This document shows positions 8,283 to 40,928 of a stretch of 40,928 bases of DNA, piece after piece (within the stretch, counting starts at the first letter, position 1; each line of letters starts with the position of its first letter). A program made the translations under genes and the position numbers. The DNA comes from a virus: the IMG/VR virus record IMGVR_UViG_3300025313_000054, positions 1 to 40,928 of that record. One strand, written 5' to 3'. The notes under the pieces were generated by a model. It saw only the letters and a list, made by a program, of their open reading frames with translations, had not been told where the DNA came from and searched no databases.

Positions 8283-8400
8283 GGGTCTTTCGCGACGTTC
8301 TCACAGCCTACGCGATCACGGGCTCCCGTTGGCAAGTCCAGACATGCCTTGTATGCTGACCTAGCTGAACGTCGGGCTTGGTCTCCTTCCGGTCGGTGCA

Positions 8401-8446
8401 GAAATTGAGCCCCCCACTCTGGGCTGAGAGTGGGGGGCTCAATTTC
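8401..8446. terminator. perfect 20-bp inverted repeat with 6-base loop
   Basis: GAAATTGAGCCCCCCACTCT (8401-8420) pairs without mismatch with the right arm (8427-8446). It lies in the gene-free stretch 8283-8561 between the SSB and PrimPol genes. It is long enough to work as a bidirectional terminator or as a cruciform. A reading frame crossing it (8279-8536) is therefore not believed. Confidence 0.7.
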
Positions 8447-8477
8447 TGCCATCACGGTCGACCTATCTAGTTGAACG

Positions 8478-26663: not shown

Positions 26664-28088
26664 ATGGGTAAGTCACTAAAAGAGCTGTACGCCGACCTGC
26701 CTGTCAGCGAACTGCAGGCGTTCATCCGCGACTCTCCCGACTACCTGATAGACGAGATGCTCCGCGGCGAATGGTGGTGGACCGCACGCCCCGAGCAAAT
26801 CCCACCCAACTCATCCTGGTTCATCTGCCTCGCATGCGCAGGCCGCGGATTTGGAAAAACCCGGGCAGGCAGCGAATGGATGGTTGACCGCACCACCAAA
26901 CACCCCTACGACTCGCATGGCGTGCCGACAGAATGGCTACTGGTAGCCGAAACCCTGTCTGACGCGCGAGCGATCTGTGTAGAAGGGCCAGCTGGCATCA
27001 TCCGCGTACTCGACAGAAGGAAGATCAAACACCAGTACGTCAAATCCCCTCGGCCGCAGATCCGCTTCCCGAACGGAGTGAAGATCCACTGCGAAGGCGC
27101 TGACGACCCTGACGTTGGGCGCGGATACAACGCAGCAGGCGCCTGGCTAGATGAGATTTGTAAATGGAAATATAGCAAAGAGTCTTGGGATGAGGGTATC
27201 ATGCCCTCCCTGCGCGCTGACCTGATTGGCGACCAGCCTCGCGCATTTGTCACGACCACACCCAAGCCGATCAAGATTTTGCGCGAGTGGCTGGCCCGCA
27301 CAGACGGCAGCGTGCACCTGATGCGCGGCTCCACGTTCGACAACTCGGCGAATCTATCCGCAGCGGTCCTGACGGAGATGAAAAACCGTTACGAGGGAAC
27401 AGTTATCGGACGGCAAGAACTGTACGGTGAGATCATCGAAGCCTTCGAGGGCGCCCTGTTCTCCCGCCTGGATCTGGAAAACCACCGCGTTCAGGACGTG
27501 CCTGACGAACTGCTAAGCATCATCGTGGGGGTCGACCCGTCGCTGACCGGTGAGGACGACGAGATGGGTGTCGTGGTGGTCGGAAACACCCCAGATCGTC
27601 ACATGTATGTCCTAGCCGACCGGAGCATCATGGCCGTTGGTCGCGCTGCCGCGCTGCACACTTGGCGAGTTGTCGCCGAGCACGGCGCCGATCTGCTCGT
27701 CTATGAGTCCAACTTGGGAAAGCGTTGGATGCAAACAGTTTTCGAGGACGCCTACCAGGAGAGCATCGAGAACGGCCTGTTTCCCCGTGGCAGTCGACCA
27801 CCAATGAAGGCTATCGACGCCAAGATCGGCAAACGTACCCGCGGCGAGCCGGTAGCGATGCGCTCAGAGCAGGGACGGTTGCACATGGTTGGGCGCATGC
27901 CCGAACTGGAGGACCAGTGTTCAACCTTCGTGGCATGGGGGACGGCCGAGTCACCGGACCGGCTGGACGCCCTGGTCCACGCCTGCCGTTGGATCATGCT
28001 ACATGAGCGCAAATCGGCCAGCATAACCTCAGCGACAGACCTCTCCACCACCCTGCAGAGCCTGTTTGCGGAGACCGCAAGGTGGTAG
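26664..28088 (+). CDS. terL: terminase large subunit
   Basis: The 474-aa protein has an ATPase domain with Walker A-like CAGRGFGKTRAGSEW near residue 60, Walker B in GYNAAGAWLDEICKWK and the coupling TTTPKP motif, then an RNase H-like nuclease domain (IIVGVDPSLTGEDDEMGVVV, LLVYESNLGKRWMQ, DRLDALVHA). It drives DNA into the prohead and cuts it. No small subunit is visible beside it. The portal gene is 6.5 kb downstream, with the Ro60 region between them, which is an unusual distance. Confidence 0.95.
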   Translation: MGKSLKELYADLPVSELQAFIRDSPDYLIDEMLRGEWWWTARPEQIPPNSSWFICLACAGRGFGKTRAGSEWMVDRTTKHPYDSHGVPTEWLLVAETLSDARAICVEGPAGIIRVLDRRKIKHQYVKSPRPQIRFPNGVKIHCEGADDPDVGRGYNAAGAWLDEICKWKYSKESWDEGIMPSLRADLIGDQPRAFVTTTPKPIKILREWLARTDGSVHLMRGSTFDNSANLSAAVLTEMKNRYEGTVIGRQELYGEIIEAFEGALFSRLDLENHRVQDVPDELLSIIVGVDPSLTGEDDEMGVVVVGNTPDRHMYVLADRSIMAVGRAAALHTWRVVAEHGADLLVYESNLGKRWMQTVFEDAYQESIENGLFPRGSRPPMKAIDAKIGKRTRGEPVAMRSEQGRLHMVGRMPELEDQCSTFVAWGTAESPDRLDALVHACRWIMLHERKSASITSATDLSTTLQSLFAETARW

Positions 28089-30022: not shown

Positions 30023-30250
30023 GTGTCCAGCAAGAAAGAACCGCCAATCCGTCTTACCCGCATCGCGCGGAAGCTCACCTTTGCTCGCATCGCCTGCGAT
30101 CTGACGCAAGCTGAAGTCGCTAACGAGCTGGGCATATCTCTTGACACGATTCACAGTTGGGAGACGGGGCGCCGCGTGCCAACCATTCCCAGGCTTGAAT
30201 CATGGGCTAGCGCGGTCAGGTGCCAGTTGGACATTTCGCCGTTGGCGTGA
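30023..30250 (+). CDS. XRE-type helix-turn-helix regulator (75 aa)
   Basis: The HTH (LTQAEVANELGISLDTIHSW followed by ETGRRVP) covers most of the protein. GTG at 30023 follows AAGGA; an earlier ATG would overlap the beta-helix gene. Size and shape fit Cro/CI-like regulators, or an antitoxin. A strong terminator follows, then the convergent DUF397 gene. HTH plus DUF397 pairs are frequent in Streptomyces (WhiJ/BldB type), so the two may work together. Confidence 0.8.
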   Translation: MSSKKEPPIRLTRIARKLTFARIACDLTQAEVANELGISLDTIHSWETGRRVPTIPRLESWASAVRCQLDISPLA

Positions 30251-30252
30251 GC

Positions 30253-30303
30253 TAGAAAACAGCGAGGCTTTGAGGGATCGCCTCTAAGCCTCGCTGTTTT
30301 CTA
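30253..30303. terminator. strong bidirectional terminator
   Basis: TAGAAAACAGCGAGGCTT (30253-30270) pairs with AAGCCTCGCTGTTTTCTA (30286-30303) through 18 pairs, with T-runs on both strands. It separates the HTH gene from the convergent DUF397 gene. Confidence 0.9.
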
Positions 30304-30335
30304 TTAAATTGTAACGCTGGTCGCGCTGTCCTAGC

Positions 30336-30530
30336 TTAGCGCAGGTCGAACTCTCCAGCGCGCACGCCCGCAACAAATGCGTCCCACTCGCCTGGGTTGA
30401 AGGTCAATACCGGCGAGGCGTCGGGGCCGAGCTTCGAGTCACGGATCTGGATGGTCCCTGGGGCCGCCAGATTCGCCTCAACGCACGAGCCCTCAGAGCC
30501 ACTGAAGCTCGACTTGAACCAGTCGTCCAT
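30336..30530 (-). CDS. DUF397 protein
   Basis: The 64-aa protein has the family signature: WFKSSFSGSEGSCVEANLA, then IQIRDSKLGPDASPVLTFNP and GEWDAFVAGVRAGEFD. DUF397 proteins are actinomycete-specific partners of XRE regulators in development and antibiotic control. A phage copy suggests host-derived regulation or an attack on host development. GGGAG precedes the ATG and TATAAC (30542-30547) is a likely -10 box. Confidence 0.9.
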   Translation of the reverse strand: MDDWFKSSFSGSEGSCVEANLAAPGTIQIRDSKLGPDASPVLTFNPGEWDAFVAGVRAGEFDLR

Positions 30531-30636
30531 TTACTCTCCCTGTGTTATAAGGGTGGTTAGCTTTCAACATTGACCTTACCAGCATGCTGGCGGCTTCCGA
30601 AATGGATCAAGCCACCTCAAGGTCTCGACCCTCTAC

Positions 30637-30846
30637 CTAGTCAAGCTGGATGGTTCGACCGTCATCGCTCAGGCAAGCGCTGACGACACCCACGCCCACT
30701 TTGCCATTCACGATGACGGTACTGGTCTTCGCTTCGGTGTGTCCTCCGTGGGCCGCGCACTCGTCCCCTTCTCCAGCCCAGAATAAAACTCCTATCGTTG
30801 CAACGAGAAGAGCGACGATGCCAGCCCATATCAATTTTTCATTCAT
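30637..30846 (-). CDS. small membrane-anchored protein (69 aa)
   Basis: The start MNEKLIWAGIVALLVATIGV is a signal anchor; the exported part contains two cysteines that could form a disulfide (GDECAAHGG and VVSACLSDDG) and looks like a tiny beta domain. GGAG precedes the ATG. It may act in superinfection exclusion like other small anchored phage proteins, but this is a guess. The CTAGACTTCAGGGG motif is upstream. Confidence 0.65.
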   Translation of the reverse strand: MNEKLIWAGIVALLVATIGVLFWAGEGDECAAHGGHTEAKTSTVIVNGKVGVGVVSACLSDDGRTIQLD

Positions 30847-30900
30847 TTCAGTCGCTCCAACTGGGCTAGTTTTTTAGGACCTTCGCAAAGGGTACCTCCA

Positions 30901-30918
30901 TATCCCCCTGAAGTCTAG
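30901..30918 (-). promoter_or_regulatory. CTAGACTTCAGGGG motif, second copy
   Basis: Read leftward CTAGACTTCAGGGG is followed by GATATGG. The 14 bases are identical to those at 20514-20527. A variant, CTTCAAGGGG, follows 15 bases further upstream. Confidence 0.5.
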
Positions 30919-30972
30919 GATCGACCCCTTGAAGTGCTGGCACGAGTTCTACTGGTTGGCTTCTGAAATGGA

Positions 30973-31004
30973 TCATGGGCTCCAGGTTTCCCTAGAGCCC
31001 ATGA
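30973..31004 (-). terminator. hairpin after the CRISPR array
   Basis: TCATGGGCTC (30973-30982) pairs with GAGCCCATGA (30995-31004). Read leftward it lies 45 bases beyond the last CRISPR repeat and could end the pre-crRNA transcript. The flanking GCTTCTGAAATGGATCA also occurs, with one change, at about 30589. Confidence 0.5.
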
Positions 31005-31049
31005 CCTCTGCGCGTCTACCGGAGGTGATTGACGGGCGGCAGTGCCAGC

Positions 31050-31261
31050 CGGAGCACCCCCACGAGCGTGGGGCGGACGGCGAGCTAACTCCTGGGGCAT
31101 CGGTCCCCCCCGGAGCACCCCCACGAGCGTGGGGCGGACGCTGAGCTGCGGATATACGACATGATAGGCGACGGAGCACCCCCACGAGCGTGGGGCGGAC
31201 GCCCGCTGGACACCCTCGGCGATCGCAGCTAGCGGAGCACCCCCACGAGCGTGGGGCGGAC
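31050..31261 (-). CRISPR. type I-E-like CRISPR mini-array, 4 repeats and 3 spacers, no cas genes
   Basis: Four identical 29-nt repeats lie at 31050-31078, 31111-31139, 31172-31200 and 31233-31261. The three spacers (31079-31110, 31140-31171, 31201-31232) are each exactly 32 nt, so the period is 61 nt. Read leftward the repeat starts GTCCGCCCCAC, forms a CCCCAC/GTGGGG stem and ends GTGCTCCG, an 8-nt tag of the I-E type. That orientation agrees with the ro60 operon, whose last gene stops 25 bases upstream. There is no AT-rich leader and no cas gene in the window. It probably relies on host Cas6e and Cascade. Confidence 0.95.
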
Positions 31262-31286
31262 TGGGCTAGCGGTGCGGCGGGGCCAA

Positions 31287-31616
31287 TCACGTGGTTTCAG
31301 CGTCTAAGCTTGGCCCGCTAGGGCCAAGTGGTATGTCAACAGACACTACAGCATCCATCAAGGGTGTGCAACAGCCATCACATCCGTGTATGCCTGCGTC
31401 TTCGCCGAACCGAATACGGATGTCGTCAGGGTCGGGATGCCCGATACCATGAGGGCATGTCCGTTCCATGATTCCTCGATCGAAACGGAAATACTGCGGA
31501 AATTCTCGCATGCTGTGATCGCTGGGGGAATGAATGGGGCACGGTGGAGCGCAATCGTCTTCGACATGCGCGCGAATGCGTTGCCCACCATGCAACTTGA
31601 CAGCTTTAGTCGCCAC
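31287..31616 (-). CDS. conserved actinophage protein with CPHGxGHPDPD motif
   Basis: The 109-aa product contains a SPSDHSMREFPQYFRFDRGI block, CPHGIGHPDPDD and GIHGCDGCC, a conserved set in Streptomyces and related phages. His and Cys residues suggest a bound metal. GTG at 31616 has AGAGGGA upstream and overlaps the end of ro60. It is the last protein gene before the CRISPR array on the same strand. Confidence 0.75.
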   Translation of the reverse strand: MATKAVKLHGGQRIRAHVEDDCAPPCPIHSPSDHSMREFPQYFRFDRGIMERTCPHGIGHPDPDDIRIRFGEDAGIHGCDGCCTPLMDAVVSVDIPLGPSGPSLDAETT

Positions 31617-33171
31617 CAGTTCCCTCTTCGTGATCTTCTAGCCAGGGCCAGTTTCCGTTACGTCCCGACTCCAGAAGTCCGATCAGCTTGAATGAGGCAT
31701 CAGTCAAACCTCCACCGATCGTAACTCGATTCCTATTTGTAGGCATCGAGGCTGCATGGTAACCGACCAGGTTGAACACGTAGAGCGGAATGTTGTCCGG
31801 CACCGCGAGGTGCGGTGGCATGCCTGTGTGCTGCTCATCAGTGATCAGGATGACTCGCGTATGTTTTTGGGTGAGGTGACGTTGGATGGCCGCATAGGTT
31901 TGCGTCCATCCAAGATTACTAAAGTGCTTGATCACGTTAAGGACTGACATCCCAGCCGGTGGGTTAATTGTTGCCGAAGAGGTGCCGTATTCGACCAGGG
32001 TCGAATGCTCTCGGTTGCGCATGTGTAGTGCGGAACCGAAGATCGCTGCGATGTCCGCCTGACTTGTTCTTCCGTGCTCGGCTAGCGGGATGAACATGGA
32101 GCCCGAACGATCAACCATGATCAGCGTGTCGCCCGTCAATTCGGGCACGTTGGCCAGCGACAGGTTGAGCGCCACCTCCAGCGGGTAAGCCCATCGCAGA
32201 TTGTTCACTTCCCGTGACGCGGAAAGAAATCGGAACGGGAACTGACGAGACCTGCGAACCTCAATCGGGTCGGTGAGCTTGTCGATCACCAATTTGGCAA
32301 TCTCGTCCGACACGCCAGCCTCGTCGAAATTGCGCAGGTTACGCAGAAGTGCCATATATCCCATGCCGGCGAGGATTTGCTTCTCCCACGCCTCCTTCTT
32401 GTCGACGGCCGCGGAGATCGTATTCTCCCACGTCATGCCAGCAGCACGGATCTCACGCTCATCAAGGGCTTCAATCGCCACGCCTTTGACAGCATGGCGA
32501 GCCCTGATCAGCTTGAGAGATTCGGGGATCTCGGTGACCCTGCCGTGGCGACGATCCAGCGCATATCGGAAAAGATCCGAACGCCACCAGGCGTCAGGCT
32601 TCGGATGACACAAATCAATAACATCAGCGAACCTGAAGGGCTTGCCCTGAGTGTCGTATTTCAGGAGCGCCTTTTCGCTGTATAAACGTCGGGCACCGTC
32701 CGCGATTCCGCGCTTAACCGGCTTGGGGATGGAGCGACCATAGTTCGTCATCCAATAGGCGAGAGCTTCACCTGGCTCGTCAGGCCGATCCATGGAGGCT
32801 GCCACAATCGCCCGCGCACCTGGAATTTTCGCGTCAACCATTGCTTTCGCTGCTTCCAATGCGCCCATAATAGGGGCCGAGCGCAGGTTCGCCTCCTTGC
32901 GCAGCCATGGCAGGAATCCAGCCACCCAGGTCGGGTCTTGAAGCGCTACAGCGTGAATGGAGTTGATGAACCGCTCATCACGCTGCATGCCCTTCTCCCC
33001 GAAGGTCTTCTCGCCTACGAGGTTGGCGACGCCCAGCATGAACAGTTCAGACTTGGCGTCCCGCTCATAGCCTTCGCCGCCCTGATGGTTGACGATTGTC
33101 GGTGCGGCAGGGGCTTGGATTGGGGTGGTGCCGATTCGCGTACGAGCACCTGCCTTGTTGAACTTGGTCAT
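31606..33171 (-). CDS. rsr: Ro60-like TROVE / vWA RNA-binding protein
   Basis: The 521-aa protein has an alpha-helical-repeat TROVE domain (residues about 25-340, with DAKSELFMLGVANLVGEKTF, DPTWVAGFLPWLRKEANLRS and AYWMTNYGRSIPKPVKRGIA) and a C-terminal vWA domain with the MIDAS motif MVDRSGSM near residue 350 and LITDEQH. Bacterial Ro60 (Rsr) binds Y RNA on its outer ring and directs RNA decay with PNPase or stabilises RNA under stress. Three Y-RNA-like genes lie just upstream on the same strand. ATG at 33171 follows AGGAGA and overlaps the preceding stop. Confidence 0.93.
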   Translation of the reverse strand: MTKFNKAGARTRIGTTPIQAPAAPTIVNHQGGEGYERDAKSELFMLGVANLVGEKTFGEKGMQRDERFINSIHAVALQDPTWVAGFLPWLRKEANLRSAPIMGALEAAKAMVDAKIPGARAIVAASMDRPDEPGEALAYWMTNYGRSIPKPVKRGIADGARRLYSEKALLKYDTQGKPFRFADVIDLCHPKPDAWWRSDLFRYALDRRHGRVTEIPESLKLIRARHAVKGVAIEALDEREIRAAGMTWENTISAAVDKKEAWEKQILAGMGYMALLRNLRNFDEAGVSDEIAKLVIDKLTDPIEVRRSRQFPFRFLSASREVNNLRWAYPLEVALNLSLANVPELTGDTLIMVDRSGSMFIPLAEHGRTSQADIAAIFGSALHMRNREHSTLVEYGTSSATINPPAGMSVLNVIKHFSNLGWTQTYAAIQRHLTQKHTRVILITDEQHTGMPPHLAVPDNIPLYVFNLVGYHAASMPTNRNRVTIGGGLTDASFKLIGLLESGRNGNWPWLEDHEEGTGGD

Positions 33172-33356
33172 CGGTCTCCTTCTTTCTTGCCATAATCCGG
33201 GTGGTATTTGCCTTCTTGGACATCCATTATTAAGGCGATCCACTCTGGATTCTGATCGTCTGTGGCCAACTTGACGAGTTCGCGCACGGTCTCGGCAACG
33301 GCCGTCTTGACGCGGCGGGCGCATTCTCCCTCGCTGATACCTGCCCGGATTTGCAT
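33168..33356 (-). CDS. small hypothetical protein upstream of ro60 (62 aa)
   Basis: ATG at 33356 follows GGGAG, part of a GATGGGAG start-associated site. The product is helical and charged (AETVRELVKLATDDQNPEWI) with a Tyr/Lys-rich tail. Its stop overlaps the ro60 start (ATGA), so they are translationally coupled. It may be an RNA chaperone-like partner; no family is known. Confidence 0.6.
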   Translation of the reverse strand: MQIRAGISEGECARRVKTAVAETVRELVKLATDDQNPEWIALIMDVQEGKYHPDYGKKEGDR

Positions 33357-33372
33357 CTCGACTCCCATCGAT

Positions 33373-33411
33373 AAAAAAAGTGGCCCCTCGCATTACACGA
33401 GGGGCCACTTT
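33373..33411 (-). terminator. strong terminator after the Y-RNA c luster
   Basis: AAAGTGGCCCCTCG (33377-33390) pairs with CGAGGGGCCACTTT (33398-33411), and read leftward it is followed by seven T residues. It ends the Y-RNA transcript 12 bases after the last Y RNA and insulates it from the ro60 operon. Confidence 0.9.
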
Positions 33412-33422
33412 GGCGGAAAAGT

Positions 33423-33563
33423 GATGTCTGAGAACAAAGTTAGAGTAGGTATACGTAGGTGCTCTGCCATTGAGCTACACCAGAGATACCTCTGGCCCCA
33501 GGATTCGAACCCGAAACAACCCGCATAGGAGGCGAAGTAACCCACTCAGTCACACCAGACATC
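33423..33563 (-). ncRNA. Y RNA 1 (YrlA-like) with a circularly permuted tRNA module
   Basis: The ends GATGTCTG/CAGACATC form the base stem. Next come the motif CTGGTGTGACTGAGT on the 5' side and TTGTTCTCAG on the 3' side, shared by all three RNAs, and a second stem GAGTGGGT/ACCTACTC. The head is a tRNA mimic in permuted order: T-arm TCGGG-TTCGAAT-CCTGG (33498-33514), a closed acceptor-like hairpin CCAGAG-GTAT-CTCTGG (33480-33495), then D-arm GCTCAATGGCAGAGC (33461-33475). Bacterial YrlA RNAs have a tRNA-like effector module; the neighbouring Ro60 gives the partner. Confidence 0.85.
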
Positions 33564-33573
33564 AAGCGCTTTG

Positions 33574-33707
33574 GTGACCCCTGAGAACTAGGTAGATCCG
33601 GTTGTTGTTATCAAGAGCGGGACTTGAACCCGCACCTATTCCTCCGAAGGGAATTGCTCACCATTGAGCTATTTTGAAGTAACCGAATCAATCACACCAG
33701 GGGTCAC
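33574..33707 (-). ncRNA. Y RNA 2 carrying a tRNA-Arg(UCG)-like body in normal order
   Basis: Base stem GTGACCCCTG/CAGGGGTCAC, the shared CTGGTGTGATTGATT and AGTTCTCAG motifs, and second stem GATTCGGT/ACCGGATC mark it as a Y RNA. The head reads as a tRNA in standard order: D-arm GCTCACCATTGAGC on the plus strand (33656-33669), anticodon arm ATTCC-CTTCGGA-GGAAT (33638-33654, anticodon TCG) and T-arm GCGGG-TTCAAGT-CCCGC (33617-33633). The acceptor-like stem is weak (TTCAAAA with TCTTGAT, two mismatches). It is embedded, so a free 3' end for charging is lacking unless it is processed. Confidence 0.8.
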
Positions 33708-33728
33708 TTTAAAGTTGTCAAAGTTTAG

Positions 33729-33806
33729 GAACCCTGAGAACAAAATGAGTCAGCTTGCGATTCGCATTAGCAGTGTGAAGTAAGCCGACTCAGCGCACCA
33801 GGGTTC
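33729..33806 (-). ncRNA. Y RNA 3, minimal form without tRNA module
   Basis: Base stem GAACCCTG/CAGGGTTC, the shared CTGGTGCGCTGAGTC and TTGTTCTCAG motifs, and a perfect second stem TGAGTCGGC/GCTGACTCA (one G-U) form a 78-nt RNA. The head is only a short TTACTTC segment and a small TGCG-AAT-CGCA hairpin. It is the promoter-proximal member of the cluster. Confidence 0.8.
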
Positions 33807-33821
33807 TTGTTACTGGATCCA

Positions 33822-33850
33822 ACACTAACGGGCATGTATGAGCGACGCAA
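33822..33850 (-). promoter_or_regulatory. promoter of the Y-RNA cluster
   Basis: Read leftward TTGCGT (33845-33850) and TAGTGT (33822-33827) are 17 bp apart, giving a start near 33815, about 9 bases before Y RNA 3. One transcript could hold all three RNAs, with gaps of 21 and 10 bases between them, up to the terminator at 33373-33411. Confidence 0.7.
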
Positions 33851-33883
33851 CCCCATTTCCTAAATGTCCGAAAAGTCCTATTT

Positions 33884-34075
33884 CTACCAGGGGACGGGGA
33901 TCGGGTCTGGTGTCGGATACGGGGGCCTAGGTGTCGTGGGGCGCGGGGGCTGTCCAACTCCAGCCGCCGGTCGGATGGGCTGAGGGTATGTCGGGGGCAC
34001 GGGCCTTGGGGGCACGGGCCTTGGGAGCGGCGGGAGTGAGGGCTTCGGGCGATGTTTCAGCACGGGTGAGATCAT
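33884..34075 (-). CDS. proline-rich protein (63 aa)
   Basis: ATG at 34075 follows GAGGAGA. About half of the residues are proline (LPPLPRPVPPRPVPPTYPQP), with Arg and Lys in the first part. It is the largest of four short proline-rich proteins in the window and is likely disordered. It lies upstream of the Y-RNA promoter on the same strand. Role unknown. Confidence 0.65.
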   Translation of the reverse strand: MISPVLKHRPKPSLPPLPRPVPPRPVPPTYPQPIRPAAGVGQPPRPTTPRPPYPTPDPIPVPW

Positions 34076-34238
34076 CTTTCTCCTCATTTCATCGTTTTCC
34101 GATCACGTGCAAACGAAACCTTACCCCTATATCCCTGTCGAATGCCAGCGGGGAGAAGACGCAACGGCCCCTTGGGGCGAGATTCAAAATTCTTCCGCCT
34201 TGAGCCTGGTACTTGTATGGTTTCCATGATATATGCAC

Positions 34239-34251
34239 TAAGATCACCCAT
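34239..34251 (+). promoter_or_regulatory. TAAGAT box for leaderless DUF1360 mRNA
   Basis: TAAGAT (34239-34244) stands seven bases before a GTG start without a ribosome site. The same hexamer and spacing occurs before the gene at 3149, and in both cases a TTG-containing word lies 20 bp upstream. Confidence 0.5.
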
Positions 34252-34551
34252 GTGGCTATCCTCTGGTTTGCGGTGTTCGGGCTGGCCTGCGCCCGATTTA
34301 CACACCTCATCCGCGCCGACAAGATCACTGAGCGTTTTCGTCAACGCTGGGTAAGGCGCTTCGGCGGAGAGTCCCTACGGAGCTACATGATCGTTTGTGC
34401 GTGGTGTTTGAGTATCTGGTTCGCGCCTTTCTTCGCCGCAGGCTTCTTGCTCTCCATCCACGCCTCTGGCTGGCAATGGCTCCTTGTCGTGCCGATCTCA
34501 CTGGCTTACTCGCACCTGGTCGGCCTGCTGGCTGGCGTCGAAGGGGATTAA
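34252..34551 (+). CDS. DUF1360 membrane protein (99 aa)
   Basis: GTG at 34252 gives VAILWFAVFGLACARFTHLI, then RADKITERFRQRWV and YMIVCAWCLSIWFAPFFAAG, the conserved CxWCLSxW core of DUF1360, and a last hydrophobic segment. The family consists of small inner-membrane proteins of phages and Gram-positive bacteria, of unknown function. It lies directly before the portal gene and starts the head operon. Confidence 0.8.
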   Translation: MAILWFAVFGLACARFTHLIRADKITERFRQRWVRRFGGESLRSYMIVCAWCLSIWFAPFFAAGFLLSIHASGWQWLLVVPISLAYSHLVGLLAGVEGD

Positions 34552-34554
34552 TTC

Positions 34555-36522
34555 ATGGCCGCACGACGCAAGCCAGCCGTAGATGTCATCGACCCTGCGG
34601 ACGACGTGCCTTTCGCGCTGACAGCATCTGCGCTAAGAATGAATTTCGACGACGCCAGTTATACGAATTATCGCTTCCGCGACGAGACGTGGCAGCGAGA
34701 ACTATGGCGATTTTACGACATAATTCCAGAGCTGCGATTCGCGGCGTCATGGATTGGTAGCGCCTGCAGCAAGGTGGAAATTTTTGTTGCAGAGGTCGAC
34801 CGGCTAGGACGAGTGCAAGGGCGCGCGACGAAACCTAACGTGGCAGCCCTGTCGGACACCCTGCTTGGTGGTCCGGCCGCTAAAGCCGAAGCCATTAGAA
34901 TGGCTGCGATCAACCTGACAGTCGCCGGTGAATGCTACATTCTCGGCAAGCCCTCCGAGAAGCCCGGCGACAAAGATAAATGGTTCATCCTTTCCAGCTC
35001 CGAGATCCGGCGCGTGAAAGGCGGAATGGTTTTCTGGGGAGATAAGCAGTATTACCAGGAGATTTTAGACCTGACCAAAAGCATGGTCACCCGAGTCTGG
35101 ACTCCGCATCCCCAGCGGGTTTGGTGCTCGGATTCGCCAGCACGAGCATGTCAGGCGATCCTGCGTGAACTTGAGCAATTGACCAAGTTCGTTTTCGCTC
35201 AGATTGATTCGCGTCTTGCCGGCGCAGGAATGTTGATCATTCCCAATAATCTGGACTTCCCTGCCCAGGATGGTGTTACTACGGCGGGCGAAAGCCTCAT
35301 GATGCGCCTCGCCCAGGCCATGGCAGCCTCCCTCAAAGGTGACGGCACCGCGATGGCTCTCGTGCCTCTGATCGTTGAGGCGGCGCCCGAGGATATTGAA
35401 CGATCCTTCAAGCTGATTACGTTCGCCTCCGAGTTGTCCAAGCAGGCAGTCGAACTGCGGGACGAGGCCATCCGGCGCCTATCCCTCGGCTTGGACATTG
35501 CACCTGAGATTCTGACCGGCCAGGGCGACATGAACCACTGGTCATCCTGGTTTGTCGATGAGGCAACAGTTAAGCTGCACGTCGAGCCGTTGATGAACCG
35601 GCTCTGTGACGCTTTGACTGACGCCTACCTGAAGCCCGCCCTGAAGATCATGGGGCTTGATCCGCAGCGATACGTATACAGCTTCGACACAAGTCCGCTC
35701 ACTATTCGTCCCCAGCGCCTACAGGACGCACTCAACTTGTTTGAGAAGGGTGCTATCGGCTTCGAGGCGTTGAGGGTGGCTGGTTACTTCAAGGAATCAG
35801 ACGCGCCATCCGCAGAAGATCTCGCTACAGCATTTGCTAAAGACTTGATGCTGCGTGACCCGAACTTGGCCCAGCAGCCAGGATGGCGTCACCTCGCAGG
35901 GATCACGGACGAAATGTTGCCCGCCGATTCGCTGACCGCCCCTGTTCCTGGCGGCGTCGGTGGCGGTAGCAGCATGAGCATAGGCTCGGGTGGTGGTTCC
36001 GGGCCGCCTCCTCCTCCGGAGCCACCACTCGGCATCCAGAATGCCGGCATTTCCCCAGTCCCCGAGGGTGGCATGTCCCCACCTCCGTCCTCGGTGGGTG
36101 ACGGAGGAATGCCAGGGTTTGGTTCCGGCGCCCCGCAGGGAATCCAGTCCTCCGCCGCTGTGATTGGTGCTCAGGATCTGGGTGTGATTGTCGCCGCGCA
36201 TGCTGTGGTCCTGCGCGGCCTGGAGTTGGCAGGAAACAAGCTACGCACCCGCTCAACCTACTCTCAGTATCCAGATTTAGATAAGCATCAGGTGCACACT
36301 GTCATCCGTGCTCGCGATCGACTCCACGCCGCTTCTCTGCTTGAAGGGGCGTGGTCCCACCTTCCGAGCCTTCTCGGTCAATTCGCATCTGATGTCAGCG
36401 CGATGGATCTTCGACAGTCGCTGACTCGTTACTGCTCAGTCCTATTGTGTGAGGGCATCGAGCATGATCCAGTTGCGCTGATTCGTCTCCTTCAGCAGGA
36501 CGGCCATATCAGTGACCAGTGA
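34555..36522 (+). CDS. portal protein
   Basis: The 655-aa protein matches actinophage portals: YRFRDETWQRELWRFYDIIP at the N-terminus, FILSSSEIRRVKGG, FKLITFASELSKQAVELRDE and GDMNHWSSWFVDEATVKLHV in the clip/stem region. After residue 450 it has a Gly/Pro/Ser linker and then a helical domain of about 120 residues (GLELAGNKLRTRSTYSQYPD), a C-terminal extension longer than in typical portals. It forms the dodecameric DNA gate. It starts 3 bases after the DUF1360 gene. Confidence 0.88.
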   Translation: MAARRKPAVDVIDPADDVPFALTASALRMNFDDASYTNYRFRDETWQRELWRFYDIIPELRFAASWIGSACSKVEIFVAEVDRLGRVQGRATKPNVAALSDTLLGGPAAKAEAIRMAAINLTVAGECYILGKPSEKPGDKDKWFILSSSEIRRVKGGMVFWGDKQYYQEILDLTKSMVTRVWTPHPQRVWCSDSPARACQAILRELEQLTKFVFAQIDSRLAGAGMLIIPNNLDFPAQDGVTTAGESLMMRLAQAMAASLKGDGTAMALVPLIVEAAPEDIERSFKLITFASELSKQAVELRDEAIRRLSLGLDIAPEILTGQGDMNHWSSWFVDEATVKLHVEPLMNRLCDALTDAYLKPALKIMGLDPQRYVYSFDTSPLTIRPQRLQDALNLFEKGAIGFEALRVAGYFKESDAPSAEDLATAFAKDLMLRDPNLAQQPGWRHLAGITDEMLPADSLTAPVPGGVGGGSSMSIGSGGGSGPPPPPEPPLGIQNAGISPVPEGGMSPPPSSVGDGGMPGFGSGAPQGIQSSAAVIGAQDLGVIVAAHAVVLRGLELAGNKLRTRSTYSQYPDLDKHQVHTVIRARDRLHAASLLEGAWSHLPSLLGQFASDVSAMDLRQSLTRYCSVLLCEGIEHDPVALIRLLQQDGHISDQ

Positions 36523-39631: not shown

Positions 39632-40928
39632 ATGGCCCGCTTCTCGGACGCTTGGAATGAGTTGCTCCACCCACGGGACCGGCTTGGACGGTTTCGTTCC
39701 AAGTGGTCCCTGAAGGGTGCCAAGAAAGTTCAGGTCGACTCCATTCTGGATCGCTTCGAGCCAAGAGTGTTCTCTGACCCGAATCGTGCTGCGCGGTACG
39801 GAATTGACGAGAGTGCTGGCCAGACTCCAGCCCAGAAGCGGGCCATCAGAGACTATGTCACCCGGAACTTCCGTGCGATCGACGCGGAGCTGGCACAGGG
39901 AAAGACTTCGCCAGAAACCGAGGCCATCGACTCGGCAATGAAGCCACTCCGAGACGACCTCCTCCTCACCGTGTCTCTCGGTCCTGAAGCATTCGGCCTA
40001 AACCCAAATGACGCACAGGCGGTCGAGGAGCTGACCGGCAAGCTTATCGCGTCCGACACCTACACGCCCACATGGCTATCCGGCGGCACCAACAACGGTG
40101 GCATTGTCATGCACATCGTTGCCCCCAGGGGGACTCCGGCGATTTTCCCTGGCGGCGCGGAGGCGACCATCGCGCGGGGACAGCCTTTCCGTGTCACAAA
40201 AGTTGAACGCGACAAGGCCACAGGCCGTATGCGGATGTTCGTGGTAGCAGTCCCGAAGAGTGACGAGAAGGCTGAAACCAACCTTCCTGAAGCTGTCCGC
40301 CTTGGGCGCGAAGAGGGCAATGTTGAGGCAATGCAGCAGCGTGCCCGATTCCCTGAGCGCGCCGAGGAATTCCCCGTAGAGGACATTCCTGAGCCCCTCC
40401 CAGCACCCTCCGGTCCGGCTCCCGAGCGCCTCCCATCAAACCCTCAGGCTGGTGAGATTCAGCCAAAGACTGCACCGTCACCCACGGGTGACACTCCTGG
40501 TGGCGTGGAAGAAGACGGACGGCCGAGCTGGACGGTTGGCAATAACCCAATCGAGGTGCAGGCTCCGGGCGGTGGTGCCGGCCTGCGCGTGACGGCCGGG
40601 AATAGGGTCATTGTTCCGGACTCTGCCGACTTGGAAGACTTGGCCGTCAATGCTCAGCGTGCTGGCTTGCCTGAGGTTGCCCGCTGGGCGAAAGTGAACC
40701 AGAAGCGGCTGAAGGCTAGCGATTCCCCTGCTTCCGCACAGCGTGCGGCAAAGCGCGCGGTTGCCGCACGAGATCTGAAAGCTAATGGCGAGCCGAACGC
40801 TCCGCAGCCATCCGCTCCCGAGGCGAATGCTCCTGCGGCGACTCCGCAGCCATCCGCTCCCGAGGCGAATGCTCCTGCGGCGACTCCGCAGCCATCCGCT
40901 CCCGAGGCGAATGCTCCTGCGGCGACTC
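39632..40928 (+). CDS. ADP-ribosyltransferase-like head-associated protein, runs off the window
   Basis: ATG at 39632 follows AGGAG. Residues of about 20-200 resemble ART exoenzyme domains: AMKPLRDDLLLTVSLG supplies the arginine, SDTYTPTWLS the S-T-S-like strand, and AEATIARGQPFRVTKVERDK the late acidic motif followed by the typical 'ARGQ/FRV' strand. A catalytic E-x-E is not obvious. ART domains next to MuF genes are injected with DNA in some phages and modify host proteins. The C-terminus is Pro/Ala-rich with 14-residue repeats. No stop is reached by 40928. Confidence 0.65.
   Translation, partial: MARFSDAWNELLHPRDRLGRFRSKWSLKGAKKVQVDSILDRFEPRVFSDPNRAARYGIDESAGQTPAQKRAIRDYVTRNFRAIDAELAQGKTSPETEAIDSAMKPLRDDLLLTVSLGPEAFGLNPNDAQAVEELTGKLIASDTYTPTWLSGGTNNGGIVMHIVAPRGTPAIFPGGAEATIARGQPFRVTKVERDKATGRMRMFVVAVPKSDEKAETNLPEAVRLGREEGNVEAMQQRARFPERAEEFPVEDIPEPLPAPSGPAPERLPSNPQAGEIQPKTAPSPTGDTPGGVEEDGRPSWTVGNNPIEVQAPGGGAGLRVTAGNRVIVPDSADLEDLAVNAQRAGLPEVARWAKVNQKRLKASDSPASAQRAAKRAVAARDLKANGEPNAPQPSAPEANAPAATPQPSAPEANAPAATPQPSAPEANAPAAT
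40801..40928 (+). repeat. 42-bp tandem repeat in the last gene, 3 copies and open
   Basis: A 42-bp unit starting TCCGCAGCCATCCGCTCCCG repeats exactly at 40801, 40843 and 40885 and is cut by the window end. It codes for QPSAPEANAPAATP repeats, a flexible spacer. Identity of the copies shows recent expansion; an assembly break here would be understandable. Confidence 0.9.

Follow-up and report, generated by a model that had tools for sequence, protein, structure and literature searches.

We found that the window, meaning the whole 40,928-bp stretch analysed here (an IMG/VR virus record classed as linear), carries a short subtype I-E CRISPR array with no cas genes, and we consider it moderately probable that the phage uses this array to supply I-E guides to the Cas6e and Cascade of its host against competing phages. 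The array and its surroundings comprise the following features.

31050-31261, minus strand: cas-less subtype I-E array with leftward crRNA direction, recognised from the repeat/spacer pattern, the stem fold and the nearest host locus
31050-31078, 31111-31139, 31172-31200 and 31233-31261, minus strand: repeats of the array
31201-31232, minus strand: spacer 1, CTAGCTGCGATCGCCGAGGGTGTCCAGCGGGC, target not established
31140-31171, minus strand: spacer 2, TCGCCTATCATGTCGTATATCCGCAGCTCAGC, which reads antisense to a motif (AELRIYDMIG) of the ClpP-like head-maturation proteases of phages
31079-31110, minus strand: spacer 3, GGGGGGACCGATGCCCCAGGAGTTAGCTCGCC, no target found
31287-31616, minus strand: small ORF (109 amino acids) between ro60 and the array, with no family match and not common to the relatives
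31606-33171, minus strand: ro60 (TROVE) gene, identified by PF05731, phrog_850 and the relatives
30973-31004, minus strand: strong hairpin past the array, a candidate transcription terminator with no T run

The array consists of four identical 29-nt repeats (GTCCGCCCCACGCTCGTGGGGGTGCTCCG) and three 32-nt spacers, with start-to-start spacings of 61, 61 and 61 nt, dimensions that fit those of subtype I-E. The repeat had no match in 100 dinucleotide-preserving shuffles, even with three mismatches tolerated, and its RNA folds into a 6-bp I-E stem with a GCUC loop. Both the stem, CCCCAC/GTGGGG, and the tag, GTGCTCCG, are identical in the phage repeat and in the I-E repeats of Micromonosporaceae, and the arrays of Salinispora flank Cas3, Cse1, Cas7, Cas5, Cas1 and Cas2, a subtype I-E locus. 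The phage array was assigned to subtype I-E on the strength of this identity, in stem and 8-nt tag, with arrays that flank an I-E cas operon. The initial annotation, made from the letters alone, had described four identical repeats with three 32-nt spacers, an I-E stem and 8-nt tag in the leftward direction, and a start 25 bases past the last gene of the ro60 operon; the first of these descriptions proved correct to the base, the second agrees with the Micromonosporaceae arrays, and 25 bases do separate the end of the ORF at 31287-31616 from the first repeat. The I-E feature that the array lacks is a leader with a conserved junction. In many host arrays the first repeat is immediately preceded by a conserved leader end of approximately the sequence ccgcaggtcgcgaagt, and this junction was absent both from the phage array, which the initial annotation had also said to lack a leader of its own, and from a second phage-borne array, that of L148. 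As the host leader end is missing, addition of spacers to the phage array in the usual way is unlikely; competence for adaptation is thus doubtful, but the type of the array is unaffected, such a lack being usual among phage mini-arrays.

With genes for terminase, portal, head, Mu-F-like, protease, primase-polymerase and exonuclease proteins, the window is a genuine tailed phage, probably with an actinobacterial host; it also has six or seven tRNA-like genes. The terminase, portal and head genes, together with syntenic relatives, place the array within a viral genome. No cas genes were found in the window with the Cas7 model PF09344, by tblastn with six I-E Cas proteins, or in Pfam, PHROGs and PADLOC searches of the main ORFs, which bears out their absence as first annotated; the sole Cas-like match was a weak one to Cas4, from an ordinary exonuclease of phage type (10529-11581). 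Since the records of two relatives are about 55 kb long, the window probably represents about three quarters of the genome, and its cas-less status applies to the window. Tandem 42-bp units at 40800-40928 run off the right end of the record and are the likely cause of the assembly break. At 329-2335, on the plus strand, genes for an RlaP-type nucleotidyltransferase and a polynucleotide kinase/phosphatase adjoin, a likely RNA-repair pair in a phage also bearing ro60 and tRNA genes.

Relatives of the phage were retrieved from IMG/VR via the portal protein. One of them, L154, is the same phage from a second metagenome (portal 100% identical), on a contig that begins inside ro60 and does not include the array. 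The contigs L155 (the same contig as L001), L157, L158 and L160 have the same gene order, with terminase about 82%, portal 82-92% and ro60 58-61% identical, while L156 is a partial relative and L159 and L161 are relatives without ro60. A search of the whole records with the repeat pattern, allowing three mismatches, found no array in any relative (the L154 contig does not span the array site). In addition, the interval between terminase and ro60 is 3.5 kb in the window versus 0.5-0.7 kb in L155, L157 and L158, and its contents are unrelated. Relatives with the same terminase-ro60-portal layout thus lack the array, which is a lineage-specific insertion that arrived in a lineage-specific cargo region. 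A DUF397 protein with high GC at third codon positions is encoded beside the array in this cargo region (30336-30530, minus strand); DUF397 is a family known from actinobacteria. Two 23-bp inverted repeats, possibly terminators, occur at 8398-8449 and 30253-30303 (100% and 96%; loops of 6 and 5 nt).

On one side the array is bounded by the final ORF of the ro60 operon and on the other by the terminator-like hairpin. In L155, L157 and L158 a hairpin of this kind immediately follows the ro60 companion gene; the arrangement in the window would place the array inside the ro60 transcription unit. The ro60 ORF is open from 33408, with a likely start at the ATG at 33171, coupled to a small ORF at 33168-33368. 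This small ORF (minus strand) has an ATGA overlap with ro60 and resembles the companion ORF downstream of ro60 in L155, L157 and L158, so that the companion gene seems to have changed sides between these phages and the window. Three tandem Y-RNA-like elements lie upstream of ro60 (33418-33815, minus strand), each with a CTGGTG-type 5' motif and a TTCTCAG near the 3' end in a closing stem; two of the three fold far better than shuffles (z -3.9 and -4.1), and the middle one contains a tRNA-like domain called as tRNA-Arg. A promoter of the array's own was considered and set aside, as no consensus promoter was found in 30200-34600; a TTGCAC-N17-TAGTGT sequence inside the small ORF at 31287-31616 was spotted by eye only. 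The initial annotation had considered the pairing of a Ro60/Y-RNA unit with a CRISPR array apparently new. Because relatives retain ro60 without the array, a functional link is not supported, and the tie of the array to ro60 is probably incidental. In a full-text literature search with most subscription papers outside its reach, no title or abstract among the papers listed paired Ro60/Y-RNA with CRISPR in a phage.

The exact repeat had zero copies in 84,980 species genomes and zero in other IMG/VR contigs. In a relaxed scan, the nearest repeats among the matches listed, with closer ones possible elsewhere, had two mismatches and came from Salinispora oceanensis, Mangrovihabitans endophyticus and the viral contig L148. 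Repeats within two mismatches of the phage repeat, and none closer, were present in 12 of the 355 Micromonosporaceae genomes. Going from the Salinispora to the phage repeat, position 5, in the 5' flank, changes from T to G and the loop from GCAC to GCTC. G at position 5 is shared by the phage array and L148, versus T or C in all Micromonosporaceae repeats found within two mismatches. The initial annotation had pointed to Streptomyces and related hosts for comparison, but the closest repeats among the matches listed are those of Micromonosporaceae, none identical. A Streptomyces origin of the repeat was rejected, since the matching Streptomyces plasmids reach no more than about 70% identity across the region. 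The host is most likely an actinobacterium near Micromonosporaceae. Compared with the phage array, the Micromonosporaceae I-E arrays (Salinispora oceanensis L069/L174 and Mangrovihabitans L011) have the same 61-nt period, stem and 8-nt tag and 27 of the 29 repeat bases, but they are chromosomal, with a leader end of about ccgcaggtcgcgaagt and, in Salinispora, a cas operon alongside.

The search for spacer targets that the initial annotation had proposed gave a divided result, in that spacer 2 resembles phage head-protease genes but no spacer has a full protospacer. BLAST of the spacers against phages, and of the array region against phages and plasmids, gave chance-level spacer matches and no full-length protospacer. 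The related phages likewise yielded none, and outside the array the window contains no self-target. A scan of the 355 Micromonosporaceae genomes with spacers 1 and 2 alone, leaving the wobble positions free and allowing three mismatches, found no match. Seed scans of IMG/VR with free wobble positions yielded a single partial match, for spacer 1, whereas spacers 2 and 3 had no match. The spacer 1 match, in L164, extends over 24 nt with mismatches only at wobble positions 6 and 12; it is suggestive and we do not claim it, as by a rough estimate chance alone would give about 0.1-0.3 such matches and the protein could be assigned to no family. Matches of spacer 1 to the mycobacteriophages MarkPhew and Typha were attributed to chance, the genes being unrelated to each other and E about 3. 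In the reverse direction, the host-array spacers examined for hits on this phage and its relatives did no better than controls in reversed orientation.

For spacer 2, a looser seed was present in 45 IMG/VR contigs, and in 20 of them it fell in the same frame of one gene family. The motif at these 20 sites is close to AEVYLYDMIGE/D, followed by an SPGG or CEGG region, and the complement of spacer 2 encodes AELRIYDMIG. Two representatives matched the Clp protease family PF00574, and one, in a PHROGs search, matched phrog_133, head maturation protease. Over the 13 bases beyond the seed, the protease matches agreed with the spacer at a mean of 5.6 positions versus 3.5 for the other 25 and 3.25 for random sequence (Mann-Whitney p about 1e-5, approximate as the matches are partly redundant); the best, in L189, agreed at 10 of 13. 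Seed matches that concentrate in one family and one frame and extend beyond the seed indicate that spacer 2 most likely originated in a head-protease gene, that of a phage not yet sampled. In the carrier itself, the head-protease region matches other PHROG families. As for targeting of related or competing viruses rather than the carrier, the spacers show no self-target and no match in related phages, spacer 2 resembles phage head-protease genes, and none has a full protospacer.

From these observations, we infer the host, transcription, processing, loading and interference steps as follows. In an I-E-compatible host, most likely an actinobacterium near Micromonosporaceae, transcription would run leftward through the array, which would form the 3' end of the ro60 mRNA, as the initial annotation had also proposed, or be read from a promoter in the vicinity. 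Cas6e of the host would cut the array RNA at its intact stems into 61-nt crRNAs, with the predicted start GUGCUCCG, and these would be loaded into host Cascade for attack on competing phages. For the guide from spacer 2, the target would be the gene encoding the head-maturation protease in a phage whose protease is of the ClpP type. Having no host leader, the array probably has a fixed content and was probably acquired by recombination with a host array.

We prefer this guide-supply model as the best explanation because the seed matches of spacer 2 concentrate in one gene family, in the same frame and beyond the seed. The four identical repeats and exact 32-nt spacers support it as well, as do the stem and tag common to the Micromonosporaceae I-E repeats, the lack of a self-target and the precedents among other viruses; the points against it are that no full protospacer, no exact host repeat, no relative with the array and no consensus promoter were found, and with no such relative there is no evidence of conservation or of spacer turnover. 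Several of these points would also suit an inert fragment: recombination would have brought part of an orphan array from a host into the variable cargo that lies downstream of ro60, where it gives no crRNA. Such an origin could account for the absence of the array from all relatives found, for a 3.5-kb terminase-ro60 cargo unrelated to theirs, for the missing leader and promoter consensus and for two spacers with no target. We nevertheless regard it as rather unlikely, since all four repeats, the distal one among them, have stayed identical, although degeneration at the distal end is seen in several host arrays, and since the array stands before a hairpin at the operon end, where readthrough transcription is expected.

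The repeats might instead be transcribed mainly as an RNA anti-CRISPR decoy that occupies host Cas6e and Cascade with crRNAs lacking a useful target and so shields the phage, the spacers being secondary. Phage-encoded repeats have been shown to inhibit I-E systems experimentally (PMC10651486), and in the present array the stem and tag that bind Cas proteins are preserved while the loop and flank have drifted, with no full protospacer found for any spacer. Known RNA anti-CRISPRs (Racrs), like the phage array, consist of a phage-encoded CRISPR repeat with an intact Cas6 stem, but they are solitary repeats (PMC10651486), whereas the array has four repeats and three full-length 32-nt spacers, with spacer 2 looking like a genuine phage-derived guide and no anti-CRISPR gene recognised alongside; we therefore judge a decoy unlikely. 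That the array is foreign to the phage genome, through chimeric assembly or host contamination, is very improbable. In favour of this reading are the metagenomic origin of the contig, the absence of the array from the relatives and the failure of the second contig of this phage to span it. Against it, terminase and portal lie on either side in the same order as in related phages, and the window shows an even base composition throughout.

The guide-supply model has precedents. Leaderless CRISPR mini-arrays occur in many bacteriophages and prophages (Faure et al. 2019, as summarised in PMC6858448, PMC7099407 and PMC11656645), cas-less mini-arrays have been described for archaeal viruses (PMC6858448), and virus-borne cas-less arrays acting against related viruses are known (PMC6858448, PMC11656645), in line with the initial statement that some viruses carry mini-arrays using host Cas proteins. 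As far as those summaries describe them, the phage mini-arrays resemble the present array in being located in a phage genome without cas genes, in their small number of spacers, in lacking a leader and a self-target and in having intact repeats of host type, but the present array differs in having three spacers rather than one or two, a repeat identical to that of no sequenced host, no related virus demonstrated as a target and a position at an operon tail. By definition, mini-arrays have one or two spacers and host-identical repeats (PMC6858448); the array works like a member of this class with one spacer beyond the strict definition, and, with no exact host match among the matches listed, its likeness to host repeats rests on those with two mismatches. 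The mini-CRISPR arrays of the Sulfolobales viruses SPV1 and SPV2 are likewise virus-borne, cas-less and expected to use host Cas proteins, but they have promoter-containing leaders, conserved positions with spacer turnover and spacers matching the sister virus (PMC6858448), none of which the phage array shows.

Phage arrays without leader and cas genes are already described, and the present one is a variant distinguished by its three spacers, its repeat found in no sequenced host and its operon-tail position. It carries virus-against-virus theft of CRISPR guides over to a phage whose host is of actinobacterial type. The cassette is compact and testable, one of its guides probably stems from a phage, and sister phages with the same operon minus the array provide a natural comparison. 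If the guides are functional, the carrier turns host immunity into a weapon; if they fail, the array becomes a candidate RNA anti-CRISPR with multiple repeats.

A second phage-borne, cas-less I-E array is present in L148 (2167-2438; record G001, 27049-27321), a 45-kb temperate phage with integrase, terminase and portal. It resembles the present array in its 61-nt period, a repeat two mismatches away, G at repeat position 5 and no host leader end, but differs in belonging to an unrelated temperate phage with an integrase gene, in having five repeats and in lying beside a tRNA-like sequence, which resembles the 3' half of a tRNA. It is conceivable, though we would give the idea little weight, that these unrelated actinophages carry a variant of the I-E repeat adapted to phages, in which the stem and tag required by host Cascade are retained and position 5 is G, forming a stable guide cassette that uses host Cascade, evades host spacer acquisition or recombination and is expressed here as the tail of the ro60/Y-RNA operon. 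Similar arrays with a 61-nt period were observed without I-E cas genes in the contig DNA examined of L120, L122, L135, L137, L146 and L151, and alongside cas matches in L134, L141, L149 and L152.
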